From an uncultured Opitutia bacterium (GTDB taxonomy: Bacteria > Verrucomicrobiota > Verrucomicrobiia > Opitutales > Opitutaceae): a stretch of DNA of 64,000 nucleotides. This document shows positions 4,352 through 54,865 of this stretch, in pieces (position 1 is the stretch's first letter; each line of letters opens with the position of its first letter). The position numbers were made by a program, and so were the translations under genes. Location: the NCBI GenBank assembly GCA_903840415.1, contig CAIMFY010000118.1:62001-126000 (forward strand). The letters are read 5' to 3'. Below the pieces are notes generated by a model. That model did not search any database and was not told the origin of the DNA. It was given only the letters and a program-made list of their open reading frames with translations.

Positions 4352-5997
4352 AAATCCAAAATCCCATCCTCCCCGGCTTCAACCCCGACCCGTCGATCGT
4401 GCGCGTCGGCGACGATTTCTACGTCGCGACCTCGACCTTCGAGTGGTTTCCCGGCGTGCAGATTCACCACTCGCGCGATCTCGTCCACTGGCGGTTGCTC
4501 ACGCGCCCGCTCACTCGGCCGAGCCAGCTCAACATGCTCGGCGATCCGGATTCGTGCGGCATCTGGGCGCCGTGCCTCACGCACGCCGACGGGCTTTTCT
4601 GGCTCATCTACACCGACGTGAAACGTTACGGTCGCACGACCGTCGGCGGCGCGAGCGGCGCCTCGTTGCGAGATTTCCACAACTATCTCGTCACGTGCGC
4701 GACCATCGACGGCGAGTGGTCCGATCCGGTTTACCTCAACAGCAGCGGCTTCGATCCATCGATGTTTCACGACGACGACGGCCGGAAATATCTCGTCAAC
4801 CAACTCTGGGATCACCGGCCCGGCCAGAATCGTTTCGCCGGCATCGTGTTGCAGGAATATTCTGTCGCCGAACGCAAACTCATCGGTCGCCGCGAAAATA
4901 TTTTTTCCGGCACGCCGCTCGGTCTCACCGAGGCGCCGCATCTCTACCGGCGCAACGGCTGGTATTATCTACTCACCGCCGAGGGTGGCACGGGCTGGGG
5001 CCACGCCGTCACGATGGCGCGCTCGCGCAAACTCACCGGGCCCTACGAGCTGCATCCCGACACCCATATTTTGAGTTCGCGTCATCGGCCCGACGTCGAA
5101 CTCCAGCGTGCCGGCCACGCCGATCTCGTCGAGACGCAGCACGGCGAGACTTACCTGGTTTATCTTTGCGGCCGTCCACTGCGAAACCGCGGCCGTTGCA
5201 CGCTTGGGCGCGAGACGGCGATTCAGAAAATGATTTGGGGTGCGGATGGCTGGCTGCGCACGAGTGACGGCGCGGGCCTTGCCCAAACCGAAGCCGCGGC
5301 GCCCGCCGGACTGGCGACGCACGTTTTTTCGGTGGAGCCGGTGCGGGAAAATTTCGACGACCCAAAGCTGCCGCTTGAGTTTCAATGGTTGCGCTCGCCG
5401 TGGCCCGACGAGCTTTTTTCGCTGACGGCGCGGCTTGGAAATTTGCGGCTCTTCGGTCGCGAGACGATCGGCAGTCAGTTCAAGCAGTCGCTCGTGGCGC
5501 GGCGGCAGCAGGCGCACTGCATCAGTGCGGCGACAGTGATCGAGTTTGAGCCTGAGCACTTTCAACAAATGGCCGGGCTCGTATGCTACTACAACAGCGC
5601 GAAGTTTCACTACCTCCTCCTCTCTCACGACGAGACGATCGGGAAACATCTGCGCGTGATGTCGGCGCTGCCCGACTCGCCGCAAGCCGACGCGTTTACG
5701 GCGCCGATTTCGATTCCGAGCGGCGAGCCCGTGCAACTACGTGTCGAGATCGATCAGGAGCGGTTGCTCTTCGCGTATCGCATAGAAAGCCGCGACACCG
5801 CATGGCAATGGCTCCCGCAGCAATTCGACGCCAGTATCCTTTCCGACGAGGCGAGCGCTCCGGGGTTGCCCAACTTCACCGGCGCCTTTGTCGGTCTGGC
5901 GTGCCAAGATATGTCGGGCACCGCGCGCCTTGCGGACTTCGACTGGTTCGACTATCGCGAACGCGAATTCCGCGCCGATCCGCGCGTCGAGGGCTAG
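4348..5997 (+). CDS. Glycoside hydrolase family 43 (beta-xylosidase/arabinofuranosidase-like)
   Basis: A 549-residue protein starting at a GTG that overlaps the upstream stop. The five-bladed GH43 domain occupies about residues 1-300, with the expected acid residues: the general base Asp14 in FNPDPSIV, the pKa-modulating Asp136 in GFDPSMFHDDDG, and the acid Glu195 in LTEAPHLY. A C-terminal beta-sandwich at about 335-545 resembles the concanavalin-like domain of XynB-type beta-xylosidases. No signal peptide is present, so it probably acts in the cytoplasm on imported oligosaccharides, in keeping with the coupled MFS gene. Exact specificity (xylose or arabinose linkages) cannot be told apart here. 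Its stop overlaps that of the convergent HAD gene. Confidence 0.9.
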   Translation: MKIQNPILPGFNPDPSIVRVGDDFYVATSTFEWFPGVQIHHSRDLVHWRLLTRPLTRPSQLNMLGDPDSCGIWAPCLTHADGLFWLIYTDVKRYGRTTVGGASGASLRDFHNYLVTCATIDGEWSDPVYLNSSGFDPSMFHDDDGRKYLVNQLWDHRPGQNRFAGIVLQEYSVAERKLIGRRENIFSGTPLGLTEAPHLYRRNGWYYLLTAEGGTGWGHAVTMARSRKLTGPYELHPDTHILSSRHRPDVELQRAGHADLVETQHGETYLVYLCGRPLRNRGRCTLGRETAIQKMIWGADGWLRTSDGAGLAQTEAAAPAGLATHVFSVEPVRENFDDPKLPLEFQWLRSPWPDELFSLTARLGNLRLFGRETIGSQFKQSLVARRQQAHCISAATVIEFEPEHFQQMAGLVCYYNSAKFHYLLLSHDETIGKHLRVMSALPDSPQADAFTAPISIPSGEPVQLRVEIDQERLLFAYRIESRDTAWQWLPQQFDASILSDEASAPGLPNFTGAFVGLACQDMSGTARLADFDWFDYREREFRADPRVEG

Positions 5998-6638
5998 CTG
6001 GTCAATGCCGCGCCCAGCGCCGTCAGATTCGCGAATACCGCGTCTGCTCCGGCCGCACGCAACTCCTCGGCACTATGCGTGCCCGTGGTGACGACCCAGC
6101 AGGGGAATCCGCCATTGTGCGCGGCCTGCACGTCATAGGGCGAGTCGCCGATAAGGACCGTGGTCGCGGGCGCGGCTCCAATTTCTGCGAGCGCGTGCGC
6201 AGCAAACTCAGCCGCCGGCTTGATCCATTCCGTGTCCTTCGCGCCAAAATTTCCGTCGAGCAGCGAAGCAATGCCGAGATGCTCACAGATGAGCCGCGAA
6301 GAGGAGCCGAGCTTGTTGGTAAACACCGCCAGCTTTGCGCCTCGCGCATGCAGCATCGTCAGCAATTCGCGCGCCCCGGGCAACAGCGCGACATCGTCGA
6401 GCACAATGGTTTCCCAATAGGCCCGGTAGATCGGCACCGCGGCGGCCACGTGCTCGGGTCCCGCGATCCGCTCGATGGCGGCTTCGAGGCCGCCGCCGAC
6501 CGCCGCACGAACCTGCGCGAGCGTCGGCGGAGGCAGGCCGAGTGTTGCCATCGTGTGCGCGTGACACCGATGGATCGCCGCGAAATGATCGATGAGAGTG
6601 CCATCGAGATCGAAGAGGACGGTGGTGAAACGCGGCAT
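5994..6638 (-). CDS. HAD-family hydrolase, phosphoglycolate phosphatase-like
   Basis: A 214-residue HAD subfamily IA phosphatase. Motif I is FDLDGTLID with nucleophile Asp10 and acid/base Asp12. Motif II is VFTNK. Motif III Lys lies in the EWIKPA segment, and motif IV is GDSPYD. A helical cap of the Gph/PGP type lies between motifs I and II. The start at 6638 directly precedes the conserved beta strand; an in-frame ATG at 6788 would add 50 residues unlike the family. It could be a phosphoglycolate phosphatase or act on another small phosphoester. It faces the GH43 gene and shares one base of stop codon with it on each strand. Confidence 0.85.
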   Translation of the reverse strand: MPRFTTVLFDLDGTLIDHFAAIHRCHAHTMATLGLPPPTLAQVRAAVGGGLEAAIERIAGPEHVAAAVPIYRAYWETIVLDDVALLPGARELLTMLHARGAKLAVFTNKLGSSSRLICEHLGIASLLDGNFGAKDTEWIKPAAEFAAHALAEIGAAPATTVLIGDSPYDVQAAHNGGFPCWVVTTGTHSAEELRAAGADAVFANLTALGAALTS

Positions 6639-50387: not shown

Positions 50388-51920
50388 ATGCCTCTTTTCG
50401 ATCCACTCCTCATTGCCATCCTCGCGCCACTCGCGCTGGCCCTCGCCATCGCATGCGGGCTGCCGAAACGCTGGTCGGTGCGGCTCGCCTACGTCGCCTT
50501 TGCGATCCCGGCGCTCATGGCGCTCCACACTTGGTGGCATTTTTCCGCGCAGACTCAGGATCACGGCTACGCGTTCGTCTCGCGCTATTCGACCGGGCTC
50601 GAGACACTCGGGATTTCGCTGCACCTCGGTCTCAACGGCATCTCGTTGCCGCTCTTCGTGCTGGCGGGGCTCGTTGGTTTCGCGGCCGGGCTCTACGCCC
50701 TCCAGTCCGGTGCCGAGCGGCTGAAAATCTACCTCATGCTGCTCCTCATCATGCAGGGCGGGCTGATGGGTGTGTTCGCCAGCATCGACGTGTTCTTCTT
50801 CTATTTCTTCCACGAACTCGCGCTCATCCCGACGTTTATCATGATCGGCGTGTGGGGCGGACGCGATCGCAGCTACGCCGCGATGAAGGTGACGATCTAC
50901 CTCACGCTCGGCGCAATGATTTCGCTGGTCGGACTCATCGCGCTCTACGTAAAGAGTGGGGCCAACACATTCGACTTTATCGCGCTCCGCGCGCACCTCG
51001 CCGCGCATCCGCTGGCGGAAACCGTTCAATCCAATATCGCCGGCCTCCTCCTCCTTGGCCTCGGCATCCTCGTCTCGCTCTGGCCACTGCACACGTGGGC
51101 GCCGATCGGCTATGGCGCCGCGCCCAGCTCCGCCGCGATGCTCCACGCCGGCGTATTGAAAAAATTCGGCCTCTATGGGCTCATCCAAATCGCCGCGCCG
51201 CTCCTGCCGGCCGGCCTCGCGCATTGGTCTCATTGGCTCGCGTGGCTCGCGGTCGTTGGCAACGTCCTCGTCGTCGGCCTCATCACCATCGCGCAGCGCG
51301 ATCTCAAGCAGATGCTCGGCTACAGCTCGGTCATGCACATGGGTTATGCGTTTCTCGGCATCGCCTCGGCTTCAGTGCTCGGCACCGGCGGCGTCGTGCT
51401 GCTGATGGTTGCCCACGGACTTTCCATCGCGCTGCTCTTTCTGCTCGCGACCAGCATCCACCACCGCACGCACACCTTCGCGCTCGATGAGATGGGCGGC
51501 CTCGCGCAAAAGACGCCGGTGCTTGCGGCGTTCTTCGTCGCCGCCACGCTCGCCAGCATCGGCCTGCCCGGCTTCGCCAACTTCTGGGGCGAGCTCACCA
51601 TCTTCGTCGCGCTCTGGAAATTCTCCCCACTCATCACTGCGCTCGCCGTCGCTGGCGTGGTCATCTCCGCGATCTACGGACTGCGGTCCGCTGCGCGGGT
51701 GTTCTTCGGCCCGCCGACTGCGCAACTCGCGCAGGTCACGGCCGCGCATCCGCCCACCGATCTGCGGTGGAACGAAAAAATTCCCGCGCTCATCCTCCTC
51801 GCCGCGCTCTTCTTCGTGGGCTTCTGGCCCAAGTCGATTACGACCGCCCTCAACGCCGCGCTGACCGCCCCCGCGCCGGTTGCGTCGGTCGCCGCCAAAT
51901 CAGCCGCCCTCCCGCGATGA
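50388..51920 (+). CDS. nuoM: NADH-quinone oxidoreductase subunit M
   Basis: A 510-residue antiporter-like subunit with about 14 TM segments. FYFFHELALIPTFIMIGVWGG holds the conserved Glu, and LHTWAPIGYGAAPSSAAMLH and VMHMGYAFLGIAS are further family blocks. It contributes one of the proton channels. Its stop overlaps the nuoN start (ATGA, 51917-51920). A C-terminal Ala/Pro/Val-rich tail of about 20 residues is present. Confidence 0.96.
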   Translation: MPLFDPLLIAILAPLALALAIACGLPKRWSVRLAYVAFAIPALMALHTWWHFSAQTQDHGYAFVSRYSTGLETLGISLHLGLNGISLPLFVLAGLVGFAAGLYALQSGAERLKIYLMLLLIMQGGLMGVFASIDVFFFYFFHELALIPTFIMIGVWGGRDRSYAAMKVTIYLTLGAMISLVGLIALYVKSGANTFDFIALRAHLAAHPLAETVQSNIAGLLLLGLGILVSLWPLHTWAPIGYGAAPSSAAMLHAGVLKKFGLYGLIQIAAPLLPAGLAHWSHWLAWLAVVGNVLVVGLITIAQRDLKQMLGYSSVMHMGYAFLGIASASVLGTGGVVLLMVAHGLSIALLFLLATSIHHRTHTFALDEMGGLAQKTPVLAAFFVAATLASIGLPGFANFWGELTIFVALWKFSPLITALAVAGVVISAIYGLRSAARVFFGPPTAQLAQVTAAHPPTDLRWNEKIPALILLAALFFVGFWPKSITTALNAALTAPAPVASVAAKSAALPR

Positions 51921-53443
51921 ATCTCGAAGCCGTCAAACTCGCCGCCGCGGACAACCTTTGGGGCGCCCTCTTCCCGGAGATGATGATCGCGGGCCTCGCG
52001 TTGCTGCTCTTGGTCATCGAACTCGTGCTGCCGAAGAAAGAGCACGCCGTCATCCCGGACATCGCGCTCGTCGGAATTTTCGGGACGCTCGCTGGACTGC
52101 TCCTGAATTTCAATTCGGCCACGCTCGACACCGATTCGTTCAATCACCTGATCCACCACAGTATGGGCGGACAGGTGATGCGCGCGTTCTTCCTGCTCGC
52201 CGCCCTCTTTGTTTGTGCGTTGGCGCGCGTCAACCTCGCCCGGCGACCGGTGCCGCGCGTGGAGTTCTATCACATCGTCCTCGTCATCACCGCGGCGATG
52301 ATGCTGCTGGTGCAGTCGAATCACTTCGTGATGCTCTTTGTCGCGTTGGAGACCGTCACGATCGGGTTCTACATTCTTGTCAGCTATTTTCGCACGAGTG
52401 GCGCCTCGCTTGAGGCCGGTTTGAAATACCTCGTGATGGGCGCGCTCGGTTCCGGGATGCTCCTCTTCGGGATCGTGCTGCTCTATGGCGTCGCGGGCAA
52501 TCCGGCGCTCCGGTCGTATACGGCGGACTCGATGCAGTTCGGCCCGCTCGCAGTTTTTCTCGCGGCCAACCCCCACCAATTCCTCGCGAGCGTCGGCATC
52601 GTCCTCGTGCTCGCCGGCGTCGCCTTCAAGATCGGCGCGTTTCCGTTTCAAATCTGGATTCCGGACGTTTACCAAGGCGCTCCCACGCCCGTGACGGCGT
52701 TTCTCGCTGTTGGCTCGAAGGCCGCCGGCTTCGCCGTGTTGCTGGCGCTCGCCGGTAAGGACGGCGTCTTTAACTCTTACGCCTGGCTCGTCACACCGGT
52801 GCTCACGCTCATGGCCGCGGCCACGATCATCTTTGGCAACCTCGCCGCGCTCACGCAACACAACGTCAAACGCCTCATCGGCCTCTCCGGCGTCTCGCAC
52901 GCCGGCTTCCTGCTGCTCGGCGTCATCGCGGCGTCGCGAGTGCCGATGGCAACCGGCGCGGTTTATTTTTACCTCTTCGCCTACCTGCTCGCATCGTTCG
53001 CGGTCTTCGGCGTGATGACGCACCTCGCCGGCGCCGACGACTCCGATCAGGAACTCGACCACTACGCCGGCCTCGCGAAGGAAAATCCATTCCTCGCCGC
53101 CATTCTCGCGATCGGCCTCGGCTCGCTCGCCGGCATCCCGCCGCTCGCTGGCTTCATGGGCAAACTCTTCGTTTTCATCGCGGCCTTCCAAGCCGGCGCT
53201 CGTTGGCTCCTCGTGATCGCCGCCGCCGGCGTGGTGATTTCGATCTACTACTACTTCGGCTGGATCAAAGCGGCGTTCTTCGAGACGTGGACGCCGCCCG
53301 CAGATACCGCTGGCGCACCCGCCCGCCCCGTGCGCACACCGGTGGCGTTCGCCGCCGGCGCCGCGCTGGTCGTCCTCGCGCTCGGCTCGCTCGCTCTCGG
53401 ATTCTTCCCGGGCCCGTTTGGGCAGTTGCTCACGCTGCGCTGA
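51917..53443 (+). CDS. nuoN: NADH-quinone oxidoreductase subunit N
   Basis: A 508-residue antiporter-like subunit with 14 TM segments. Key blocks are LFVALETVTIGFYILVSYF, KYLVMGALGSGMLLFGI, FKIGAFPFQIWIPDVYQGAP with a conserved Lys, and GIPPLAGFMGKLFVF. It is the last gene of the operon. The next gene starts 75 bp later behind a short-period repeat. No clear hairpin terminator was found in this gap. Confidence 0.96.
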   Translation: MNLEAVKLAAADNLWGALFPEMMIAGLALLLLVIELVLPKKEHAVIPDIALVGIFGTLAGLLLNFNSATLDTDSFNHLIHHSMGGQVMRAFFLLAALFVCALARVNLARRPVPRVEFYHIVLVITAAMMLLVQSNHFVMLFVALETVTIGFYILVSYFRTSGASLEAGLKYLVMGALGSGMLLFGIVLLYGVAGNPALRSYTADSMQFGPLAVFLAANPHQFLASVGIVLVLAGVAFKIGAFPFQIWIPDVYQGAPTPVTAFLAVGSKAAGFAVLLALAGKDGVFNSYAWLVTPVLTLMAAATIIFGNLAALTQHNVKRLIGLSGVSHAGFLLLGVIAASRVPMATGAVYFYLFAYLLASFAVFGVMTHLAGADDSDQELDHYAGLAKENPFLAAILAIGLGSLAGIPPLAGFMGKLFVFIAAFQAGARWLLVIAAAGVVISIYYYFGWIKAAFFETWTPPADTAGAPARPVRTPVAFAAGAALVVLALGSLALGFFPGPFGQLLTLR

Positions 53444-53477
53444 CCAGCGAATTTCGGTTCCCGTTCCGTTTCCCTGC

Positions 53478-53504
53478 TTGCGCCTTTTGCGCCTCTTTGC
53501 GGCC
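53478..53504. repeat. Three-copy 9/10-bp direct repeat upstream of the ThyX-like gene
   Basis: TTGCG recurs at 53478, 53487 and 53497 in the units CTTGCGCCT, TTTGCGCCTC and TTTGCGGCCA. The element ends 14 bp before the ATG of the ThyX-like gene and follows nuoN by 34 bp. It resembles in style the elements at 571, 9666 and 57493 but has a different sequence. Confidence 0.65.
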
Positions 53505-53518
53505 ATGTGTCCCGCTGC

Positions 53519-54865
53519 ATGAGAATCACCGGCCTCGCCCTCGTCCCGCCTCCGACTGCCGCCGACCAGCCCAAGGTCACGCCTGAACTCCTCGCGTCGG
53601 TCCTCGCGCGCTACTCGCGCAGCAATGACGGTCTCGCCAACATCCTCTCCAAGGTCGATCTCGCGAACCCCGACGCCTCGATCGATCGCATTCTGAAATT
53701 CGTCGATTACGGCCACGCTTCCATCGGCGGTCTCACCGGCGGGCTCGCGGTGGCGCTCGATGGCGTCTCGATGTGGCTCGCTTGGAAAATTTTTGAAATT
53801 TCCACGATGGCCGACGGTCAGGAGTCGAGCACGCGCTACATCACAATGGACGCATCTAACCTCCCGACGCCCGACGAACTCGGCCTCCCCGCCGATCTCG
53901 CTGATCGTTGGCGCGACGTGATGGGGCGCGCGTTCGCTGCCTATCACGCCGAGTATGCGCGGCTTGATGCGCTTTCGGTGGCGGAGCCGGCGCGCGTGCG
54001 CCTGCCGGCCAACGCGAGCCCCGCTGTCGTCTCGCGGCTCCGCAAAAACTACGCACTGGATCGGGCGCGCTACTTCATCCCGCTCGCCACGCGCACCAAT
54101 CTCGGCCTCGTCCAGTCCTCGCGCATGTGGGCGACGACGGTGAAGCACCTCGATTCGCTGCCGCAGCCCGAGGCCCGTGCCGCCGCGAAACTTCTCCGCG
54201 ACGAACTCCTCAAGCAGTCGCCGCGGCTCATGCGCCACAGCTCCGCGGAGCAATCCTTCAAGGCGCAAACGGCGCAGGAACTCGCGGCCTCGCTCGCACT
54301 CGGCCGCGCCTGCCTTTCGGCCGCGCCACTCGCCGACGAAGTCTGGGTCCGCGTTGATCGCGCCACACCGTCGTTCCTCGCGGAAACGCAGCCCGTCGCC
54401 GAGTCGCTCCGCCACCGCGCGAACCGCTACGGTCATCAAGGCTTGGCGACGCGTCGCATGAGAGTGAGCTTCGCATGGAACAACCTCGCGCTCGCCGAAC
54501 TCCGCGACCTCAACCGCCACCGCACCGGCCATCGCTACACCCCGCTGATTCAGGCGGGCTTTTATCTGCCGCCCGAAATCGATCGCGCGCCGCACGCCGC
54601 GCTCCTCGCCGATCAACTAGCGCTGACCCGCGAACTCCTCGATCGTGGCTCGCCGGCCTATGTTTACTCGCTGCTGCTCGGCGCGCAGACACCCTTCGAA
54701 CACAGCACGCACGCCGATAAATTCATCTATGAGGCTGAGCTCCGCACCGGCATGGGCGCGCACTTTCGCTATGCCGAGCACATGAGCGCGGCGCTTCGCG
54801 AGTTTTTCAAACAGGTGCCCGAGGCCCACGACTGGGTCGTCGAAGGCACGGCCGAACCGGAGTGA
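53519..54865 (+). CDS. Double-length ThyX-like (FAD-dependent thymidylate synthase family) protein
   Basis: A 448-residue protein made of two ThyX-like halves, against about 220-280 residues for ordinary ThyX. The N-terminal half (about 20-235) has VDYGHASIGGL, a QESSTRY motif at 101-107 and DRARYFIPLA...SSRMW. The RHR triad expected before the serine loop reads EIS at 93-95. The C-terminal half (about 285-448) has NRHRTGHRYTPL at 332-343 and YVYSLLLGAQTPFEH, but lacks the SxRY serine part. Each half thus keeps a different part of the RHRxxSxxxSxRY signature. ThyX makes dTMP with FAD and methylene-tetrahydrofolate. Double-length versions also occur in chlamydiae, to my knowledge. I chose ATG 53519; a GTG at 53507 is possible. 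Confidence 0.75.
   Translation: MRITGLALVPPPTAADQPKVTPELLASVLARYSRSNDGLANILSKVDLANPDASIDRILKFVDYGHASIGGLTGGLAVALDGVSMWLAWKIFEISTMADGQESSTRYITMDASNLPTPDELGLPADLADRWRDVMGRAFAAYHAEYARLDALSVAEPARVRLPANASPAVVSRLRKNYALDRARYFIPLATRTNLGLVQSSRMWATTVKHLDSLPQPEARAAAKLLRDELLKQSPRLMRHSSAEQSFKAQTAQELAASLALGRACLSAAPLADEVWVRVDRATPSFLAETQPVAESLRHRANRYGHQGLATRRMRVSFAWNNLALAELRDLNRHRTGHRYTPLIQAGFYLPPEIDRAPHAALLADQLALTRELLDRGSPAYVYSLLLGAQTPFEHSTHADKFIYEAELRTGMGAHFRYAEHMSAALREFFKQVPEAHDWVVEGTAEPE

Follow-up and report, generated by a model that had tools for sequence, protein, structure and literature searches.

The question raised by this locus is how a bacterium might make thymidylate with a ThyX-like protein that consists of two fused halves and carries the complete catalytic motif in neither of them. 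ThyX is a drug target of interest, with an unusual flavin-borne one-carbon chemistry and an active site that lies between three subunits. The gene was found in a stretch of 64,000 nucleotides (hereafter the window), and the preliminary description of its product as a tandem ThyX had proposed that the two halves rebuild a composite site between them. From the residues that each half retains, this bacterium appears to make thymidylate by means of a double-length ThyX with a shared site.

The gene and the residues discussed below are listed in Table 1. A GTG at 53507 is an alternative in-frame upstream start; in all 37 complete relatives extracted a methionine was aligned with the ATG at 53519, the 38th relative being truncated by the end of its contig. 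The window protein scored 62.6 bits against Pfam PF02511 (Thy1; gathering cut-off 24.8), with two matched stretches, and fell short of the NCBIfam ThyX equivalog TIGR02170 (16.2 bits against a cut-off of 87.9), a cut-off that none of the seven tandem proteins tested reached. It had no match to PF00303 and is thus not of the ThyA type; by Pfam and by profile comparison it holds two ThyX domains within one chain. Relatives were encoded in 311 genome stretches, the best 80 of which were analysed further. Estimates of dN/dS were 0.07–0.18 for the N-terminal half (16 pairs) and 0.04–0.14 for the C-terminal half (14 of the 16 pairs being computable), indicating purifying selection on both, with dS near saturation (about 1 or above) in many pairs. 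A chance or artefactual frame was ruled out by the open frame, the conserved start, the 311 stretches encoding relatives and the purifying selection on both halves. A minus-strand frame of 980 amino acids (51674–54616) that overlaps the gene was taken for a by-product of the high G+C content.

Table 1. Positions in the window of the tandem ThyX gene, its two halves and the residues compared with ordinary ThyX; counts refer to 61 tandem proteins
Feature	Position	Strand	Observation
Tandem ThyX gene	53519–54865	+	448 aa plus stop; ATG start at 53519; PF02511 62.6 bits
N-terminal ThyX half	53519–54304	+	Residues 1–262, border chosen by the authors; profile and structure matches
C-terminal ThyX half	54305–54862	+	Residues 263–448; profile match to ordinary ThyX
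H66-A-S68, equivalents of T. maritima H53 and T55 (folate-/FAD-side)	53714–53722	+	H 59/61, S or T 61/61
E93-I94-S95-T96, in the RHR place of ordinary ThyX, motif lost	53795–53806	+	N-half RHR 0/61
G100-QESSTRY-107, active-site loop; S104, R106 and Y107 are S88-, R90- and Y91-type	53816–53839	+	S 61, R 61, Y 58 of 61
D181-R-A-R184, equivalents of E144 and R147	54059–54070	+	D or E 61/61, R184 60/61
R202, equivalent of R165 (M. tuberculosis R190)	54122–54124	+	R 48/61
R329-D-L-N-R333-H-R335, RHR motif, only in the C-half	54503–54523	+	R 61, H 58, R 60 of 61
D400, in the R165 place, Arg lost	54716–54718	+	R 3/61; Asp or Pro 39/61
R409, equivalent of R174 (dUMP activation)	54743–54745	+	R 61/61

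Homology of the two halves was assessed with profiles against a set of 32 ordinary ThyX sequences, made up of the 30 best-scoring Verrucomicrobiota loci and the proteins of T. maritima and M. tuberculosis. The N-half profile (38 sequences, window included) matched this set with a probability of 98.8 (E 1.3e-16, 200 columns), and the corresponding C-half profile (38 sequences, window included) gave a weaker match (probability 94.3, E 9.9e-8, 184 columns). Direct comparison of the N-half and C-half profiles resulted in hardly any match (14.6). As both halves match ordinary ThyX and scarcely match each other, each is a ThyX domain and the two have long diverged. An AlphaFold2 model of the window protein based on 43 sequences (pLDDT 92.2, pTM 0.90) superseded an earlier one from 18 sequences (pLDDT 74.6), which had given weak Foldseek matches. 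Among the matches listed by VIA-align, residues 1 to about 244 matched all 45 ThyX entries with Z-scores of 11.0–13.2 and PolB with 10.2–10.7, the next row standing at 3.8. The two best matches in the Foldseek viral library were full-length, one being the thymidylate synthase of Microcystis phage LMM01 (491 aa) and the other an unnamed protein of 461 aa. In the model, judged by eye, the order of helices (H) and strands (E) in the N-half (E76-84, H85-94, H168-186, E192-199, H201-213, H217-231) is repeated in the C-half (E315-324, H325-331, H357-375/H379-384, E389-398, H399-409, H416-432). A scan of four tandem proteins against PHROGs gave one matching family, phrog_36506 'thymidylate synthase', whose 491 positions equal the length of the LMM01 protein; a single-sequence phmmer search against the PDB gave nothing useful.

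Residue conservation was counted in 61 tandem proteins that were less than 75% identical, window included. Dereplication of 78 tandem proteins (window included) at this threshold left 38, a second viral scan added 26 of its 38 loci (12 were excluded by our own choice from the listing as repeat contigs or likely repeats), and the resulting 64 rows were reduced to 61 by a further dereplication that dropped L216, L227 and L233. Viral frame starts were placed at the last methionine ahead of the match, and one row (L068) was truncated at its N-terminus; the loci L091–L170, which were used for neighbouring genes and in five cases for dN/dS, were excluded from the residue counts. The viral scans contributed 46 of the 61 rows and used patterns that included GQESSTRY and [YF][SNA]GQESST, so that conservation of the N-half loop is partly built in for these 46 rows, one of the two search patterns lying in that loop. 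GQESST was nevertheless absent from 26 of the 46 pattern-found rows, and the regions of RHR and R409 were part of no viral pattern.

The N-half keeps the residues of H53-, T55-, S88-, R90-, Y91- and R147-type (T. maritima numbering) and lacks RHR and R174; these two are present in the C-half, in which all six of the former types are lost. The E86-type residue is likewise kept in the N-half (60 of 61, plus one Q). Substitutions in the kept residues were few, namely two D at H66, two A and one F at Y107 and one G at R184 in the N-half, and three Q at H334 and one N at R335 in the C-half. In the 43-sequence alignment, window included, 21 columns were invariant, among them H66, S68, E102, S104, R106, Y107 and D181 of the N-half and R329, D330, R333, H334, R335 and R409 of the C-half. 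The preliminary description had stated that the N-half retains the serine loop, as was found (GQESSTRY at residues 100–107), and that it reads EIS where RHR should be, which is right to within a residue, the profile alignment placing E93, S95 and T96 at the RHR positions. Its further statement that the C-half retains RHRTGHR and lacks the serine part also holds, RHR being residues 333–335 and an S/R/Y triplet of roughly canonical spacing being absent.

Across the 61 tandem proteins, no N-half contained RHR and no C-half showed S, R and Y downstream of its RHR at roughly the canonical distance; an SNRY string in two C-halves (L067, L183) is positioned before RHR. RHR and S-x-R-Y at their usual spacing within one domain were found in neither half of any of the 61 tandem proteins, against all 30 of the best-scoring ordinary loci, which had been trimmed around this very pattern (R78, H79, R80, S88, R90, Y91) and all carried it. 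H53, R147 and R174 were present in 32 of the 32 ordinary ThyX, as were the six pattern residues; a weaker single-domain locus outside the 30 (L073) reads RHE. The R174 place of the N-half falls on a conserved Leu/Met column (column 211; L in 48, M in 10) or on the adjacent variable column 210 (Arg in 6 of 61); in the C-half, a Tyr (residue 383) is found close to the R147 place in 56 of 61. The same division was seen in the 15 rows free of any motif-pattern choice, in which the N-half residues of H53-, T55-, E86-, S88-, R90-, Y91-, R147- and R165-type were present in 14, 15, 14, 15, 15, 14, 15 and 10 rows and the C-half residues of R78-, H79-, R80- and R174-type in 15, 15, 14 and 15. Judged from these alignments, the split pattern is not due to chance.

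The division of residues can be compared with that between subunits in published structures. For the active site of M. tuberculosis FDTS, the available parts of the source (PMC6514825) assign RHR 95–97 and R199 to subunit A, S71 and R190 to subunit B, and S105, R107, Y108 and the dUMP contact R87 to subunit C. For PolB, the accessible text (PMC5003785) has R82/H83 belonging to one monomer and S96', R98' and R166' provided by the adjacent one; excerpts of two further papers place H53 on 'monomer-3' (PMC11940539) and give the role of R174 as dUMP activation (PMC8316439). The subunit-A residues are kept only in the C-halves of the tandem proteins, and those of subunits B and C, with the exception of R87, only in the N-halves. 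R87 was excluded from the split count since the corresponding T. maritima residue is I70; it is not conserved among ordinary ThyX, and the aligned residue in the window N-half was read as Met, this published dUMP contact thus being kept by neither half.

The split matches the known geometry, as RHR and R174 are on one subunit and the remaining residues on its neighbours in the published structures. With the catalytic parts missing from one half retained in the other, the two would have to share a working site, and across both halves together the sequence holds the full set of catalytic residues for one oligomeric site. A tetramer of 222 symmetry permits such a split if a true two-fold relates B to C, in which case each N-half would be B at one site and C at the other and each C-half would act as A at one site; sites needing an N-half as A would be incomplete, there being no RHR and no R174 in it. 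From sequence and published geometry we infer two complete sites per dimer, that is two per pseudo-tetramer and one per chain. A composite site formed by both halves accounts best for the way the residues are divided and is supported as a reading. The composite site suggested by the preliminary description has thus gained in detail, through further residues (R174, R147, T55, H53 and, less strictly, R165) and published subunit roles, and is also backed by conservation in distant relatives and by the mutual exclusion with ThyA described below.

The enzyme that we propose would convert dUMP to dTMP with FAD and methylene-tetrahydrofolate, and would have arisen by duplication of a ThyX, fusion of the copies and complementary degradation of the two halves. 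Two chains would pair into a dimer that mimics the tetramer of ordinary ThyX. The C-half would bring to each working site the RHR motif, for the FAD phosphates and flavin N1, together with the dUMP-activating R174-type Arg. The S-x-R-Y loop and the R147-type Arg, which serve dUMP and the lid, would come from one N-half; the other N-half would add the T55- and R165-type residues for FAD and probably H66 for folate. As only two of the four interfaces would hold the full set, a dimer would have two working sites and two dead interfaces, and the enzyme would carry out the thymidylate synthesis of the cell in place of ThyA. We consider it highly probable that the gene encodes a functional ThyX of this duplicated, fused and complementarily degraded kind with two sites per dimer, its activity, quaternary structure and site number being predictions.

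The preliminary description had noted that neither thyA nor an ordinary thyX lies in the window, and had set out a search of the genome for another thymidylate synthase as a check. In the genome of the window (98.08% complete), PF02511 gave one match, the tandem gene, and PF00303 gave none, so the observation made for the window extends to this genome, in which neither model revealed a second thymidylate synthase. The genome also carries a gene for thymidine kinase, which makes salvage possible, and one for DHFR, an enzyme that a ThyX-only cell needs less. The best 80 of the 311 stretches were labelled Opitutae, Opitutia, Opitutaceae or Verrucomicrobia without closer placement, further genera among them being presumably Opitutaceae as well, and the family bearing the tandem gene was taken to be the Opitutaceae. 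Among 200 genomes drawn from this family, 176 contained the tandem gene and 24 did not; a full-length ThyA was found in 14 and a ThyA fragment at a contig edge in one more, none of these 15 having the tandem gene, and nine genomes had neither gene, the seven of them listed being at most 84% complete. In the 147 good genomes of the family (at least 90% complete, at most 5% contamination) the exclusion was complete, 136 having the tandem gene without full-length ThyA, 11 full-length ThyA without the tandem gene and none both or neither; as the genomes of a family are related, these are not 147 independent events. A draw of 387 genomes from the phylum yielded the tandem gene in 39, comprising 34 of the 37 genomes of the family and five of other Verrucomicrobiota families, and none of the 39 had a full-length ThyA or a ThyX match of ordinary strength. 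The tandem protein thus seems to be the sole enzyme of this function in most of the Opitutaceae. In the window the gene adjoins nuoN, and among the best 80 of the 311 stretches a nuoN relative was found no more than 6 kb away in 38 of the 47 loci that span at least 13 kb (55 of all 80), pointing to a fixed chromosomal place.

Weak partial matches to PF00303 (best 34–69 bits) were found in ten tandem-bearing genomes. Frames of this kind, about 300–510 aa long with about 34–88 bits and often covering profile positions 93–222, occur beside tandem ThyX or full ThyA (G010, G099, G122, G412, G421, G426, G444, G461, G472, G475 and others of the phylum), and may represent a ThyA-like family with another job.

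The distribution bears on whether the protein is the thymidylate synthase of the cell at all. It could instead be a ThyX-fold methylase acting on another substrate, such as UMP, dCMP or a base of phage DNA, and there is precedent in that the PolB fold accepts UMP, according to the accessible text of that work (PMC5003785); many relatives, moreover, are encoded by phages and viral contigs, where DNA modification is possible, as can be read in sections of one phage paper (PMC7824862). Against it stand the exclusion of ThyA in 147 of 147 good family genomes and the finding of no other thymidylate synthase in the own genome, and a dUTPase neighbour on a viral contig points to dUMP; we regard this possibility as improbable. 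Even less credit is due to the idea of a degenerate, non-catalytic relative in cells that live by thymidine salvage. The lack of a complete motif in either half and the presence of thymidine kinase speak for it, as does an atypical ThyX of Corynebacterium that the title of PDB 3ge9 describes as dispensable for thymidylate synthesis; yet the catalytic residues rank with the most conserved columns, purifying selection acts on each half and ThyA has been replaced across a family.

A working synthase might also have retained four sites, with replacement residues rebuilding the two interfaces that seem dead. The C-half has invariant or near-invariant residues of its own that could serve as substitutes (R329, D330, G388, Y383), but the lost N-half positions 93, 95, 96 and 210 are variable columns, unlike a replacement ligand, and the S/R/Y triplet after the C-half RHR is absent in 61 of 61 proteins; we think a four-site enzyme very unlikely. 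The tandem synthase with two composite sites per dimer is the reading retained in what follows.

Relatives of the gene are widespread in phages. A tblastn search matched 17 phage records, 11 of them with at least 80% query coverage, including Microcystis phage LMM01 and Vibrio phage BONAISHI; in Tunturiibacter phage Tunturi_5 the match extended over the N-half, the tandem gene there encoding 518 aa. Scans of viral contigs gave 31 and 38 loci, on partly shared contigs. One such contig (L176) is a phage by its neighbour genes, which encode a phage single-strand binding protein, primase, RuvC-like resolvase, exonuclease, head closure protein, sliding clamp, clamp loader and dNMP kinase. On a 211-kb viral contig (L171) a dUTPase gene (4540–5004) overlaps the start of the tandem thyX (5001–6350) by four bases including its stop codon, and the two may form a compact dUTP-to-dTMP pair; in Tunturi_5 a dCMP deaminase gene adjoins the tandem gene and dUTPase is two genes beyond. 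A longer form of 516–565 aa with the same split was found on large plasmids of Bacillus, Paenibacillus, Euzebya and Miltoncostaea and in one record labelled Parabacteroides. The split was the same in five plasmid proteins read by eye (L249–L253), with RHNR for RHR in L249, L250 and L253.

A tree of 66 rows united the Opitutaceae in a clade (support 99) with seven viral rows as its sister group (support 95 for the two together), and placed the loci of other Verrucomicrobiota (L064–L068) elsewhere among viral rows. The tree came from a quick search with SH-aLRT support only; its root is uncertain, two long branches (L074, L205) that join at the root may be misplaced, and most viral rows are database contigs and not isolates. 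By parsimony the tandem gene was probably captured from large phages, and, with the uncertainty of the root in mind, two captures by Verrucomicrobiota are the simplest reading. On balance, and with some reserve, we favour a wider view in which duplication, fusion and complementary loss made out of a four-site homotetramer a subclass of ThyX that is an obligate two-site pseudo-heterotetramer. This subclass would be of long standing and common among large phages, and Verrucomicrobiota would have captured it on two occasions or more; in them it would have displaced ThyA and become the sole synthase in most of the family, the dead interfaces being free for some other role, for example in regulation or substrate delivery.

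Compared with ordinary ThyX (PF02511, TIGR02170; T. maritima TM0449, M. tuberculosis and H. pylori), the tandem protein shares the fold of its N-half, the catalytic residues, which are present somewhere in the chain, and presumably the role. It differs in the fusion of the halves, in the location of RHR and the S-x-R-Y loop in different halves, in having probably two sites per dimer where the homotetramer has four, and in its score below the equivalog cut-off. The chlamydial ThyX, the subject of a 2005 paper by Griffin et al., may also be double-length. A 'domain duplication' of ThyX in Chloroflexi was noted in 2009 by Valas and Bourne (PMC3224940), whose available text states that the duplicated ThyX was the only thymidylate synthase in the Chloroflexi genomes of that date except Dehalococcoides; domain duplication is thus common to both, common descent is likely, and a residue split is not described in that text. 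The thymidylate synthases of Microcystis phages LMM01 and MaMV, Vibrio phage BONAISHI and Tunturi_5 have the same tandem design, with the split of the window protein in those of LMM01, BONAISHI and Tunturi_5; these phage proteins share about 23–27% identity with the window protein in the matched regions and carry no annotation beyond thymidylate synthase, thymidylate synthase-like or hypothetical protein. Three phage papers (PMC7824862, PMC7431792, PMC9927357), in the portions available, mention ThyX or thymidylate synthase only. PolB, the UMP/dUMP methylase of polyoxin biosynthesis, has the ThyX fold and binds dUMP at a site between two monomers that divide the residues in the same way, but is, by the accessible text, a tetramer of single-domain chains (PMC5003785). 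No account of a split site was found in the literature searched, which covered few subscription journals and included the available parts of PMC1971073, PMC5954106, PMC3498832 and PMC10733785. The duplication was thus already known, whereas no description was found in that literature of the complementary loss, its fit to the subunit geometry or the apparent role as sole synthase in most of a family.

A fused ThyX with such a forced division of labour would allow the role of each subunit to be probed with mutations confined to one half of a single chain, and might reveal whether ThyX sites depend on one another. If our reading is true, the majority of genomes in a bacterial family rely, as do many large phages, on an enzyme that stays below NCBI's ThyX equivalog cut-off, although Pfam's broader Thy1 model does recognise it, and an enzyme that is probably derived from phages has replaced a core DNA-precursor enzyme of the host.

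Some further loci met in the searches depart from the common form. On a 479-kb viral contig with a tandem thyX, a groEL-type chaperonin is encoded about 2.4 kb upstream of it (L182:1017-2633). RHNR in the C-half, with an inserted or changed residue, was read in four proteins of 528–565 aa (L205, L249, L250, L253) from Paenibacillus and Bacillus plasmids of about 200–230 kb. One tandem ThyX (L074, genome G004) has a stronger PF02511 match per half, with HNH for RHR in its N-half and QRHR in its C-half. Finally, five genomes of another Verrucomicrobiota family (family code f36; G225, G338, G264, G068 and G095), which are not in the list of ThyA matches, contain frames of 251–323 aa with a weak PF02511 match (L081–L085). 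Their parts follow in the order THRLFSRNASSSR (RHR and loop), VRWHPDAQPEI (the R174 part) and ARCARVSY...LHASPMEH, which is N-terminal in ordinary ThyX, so that, read by eye, these frames look like a circularly permuted ThyX.
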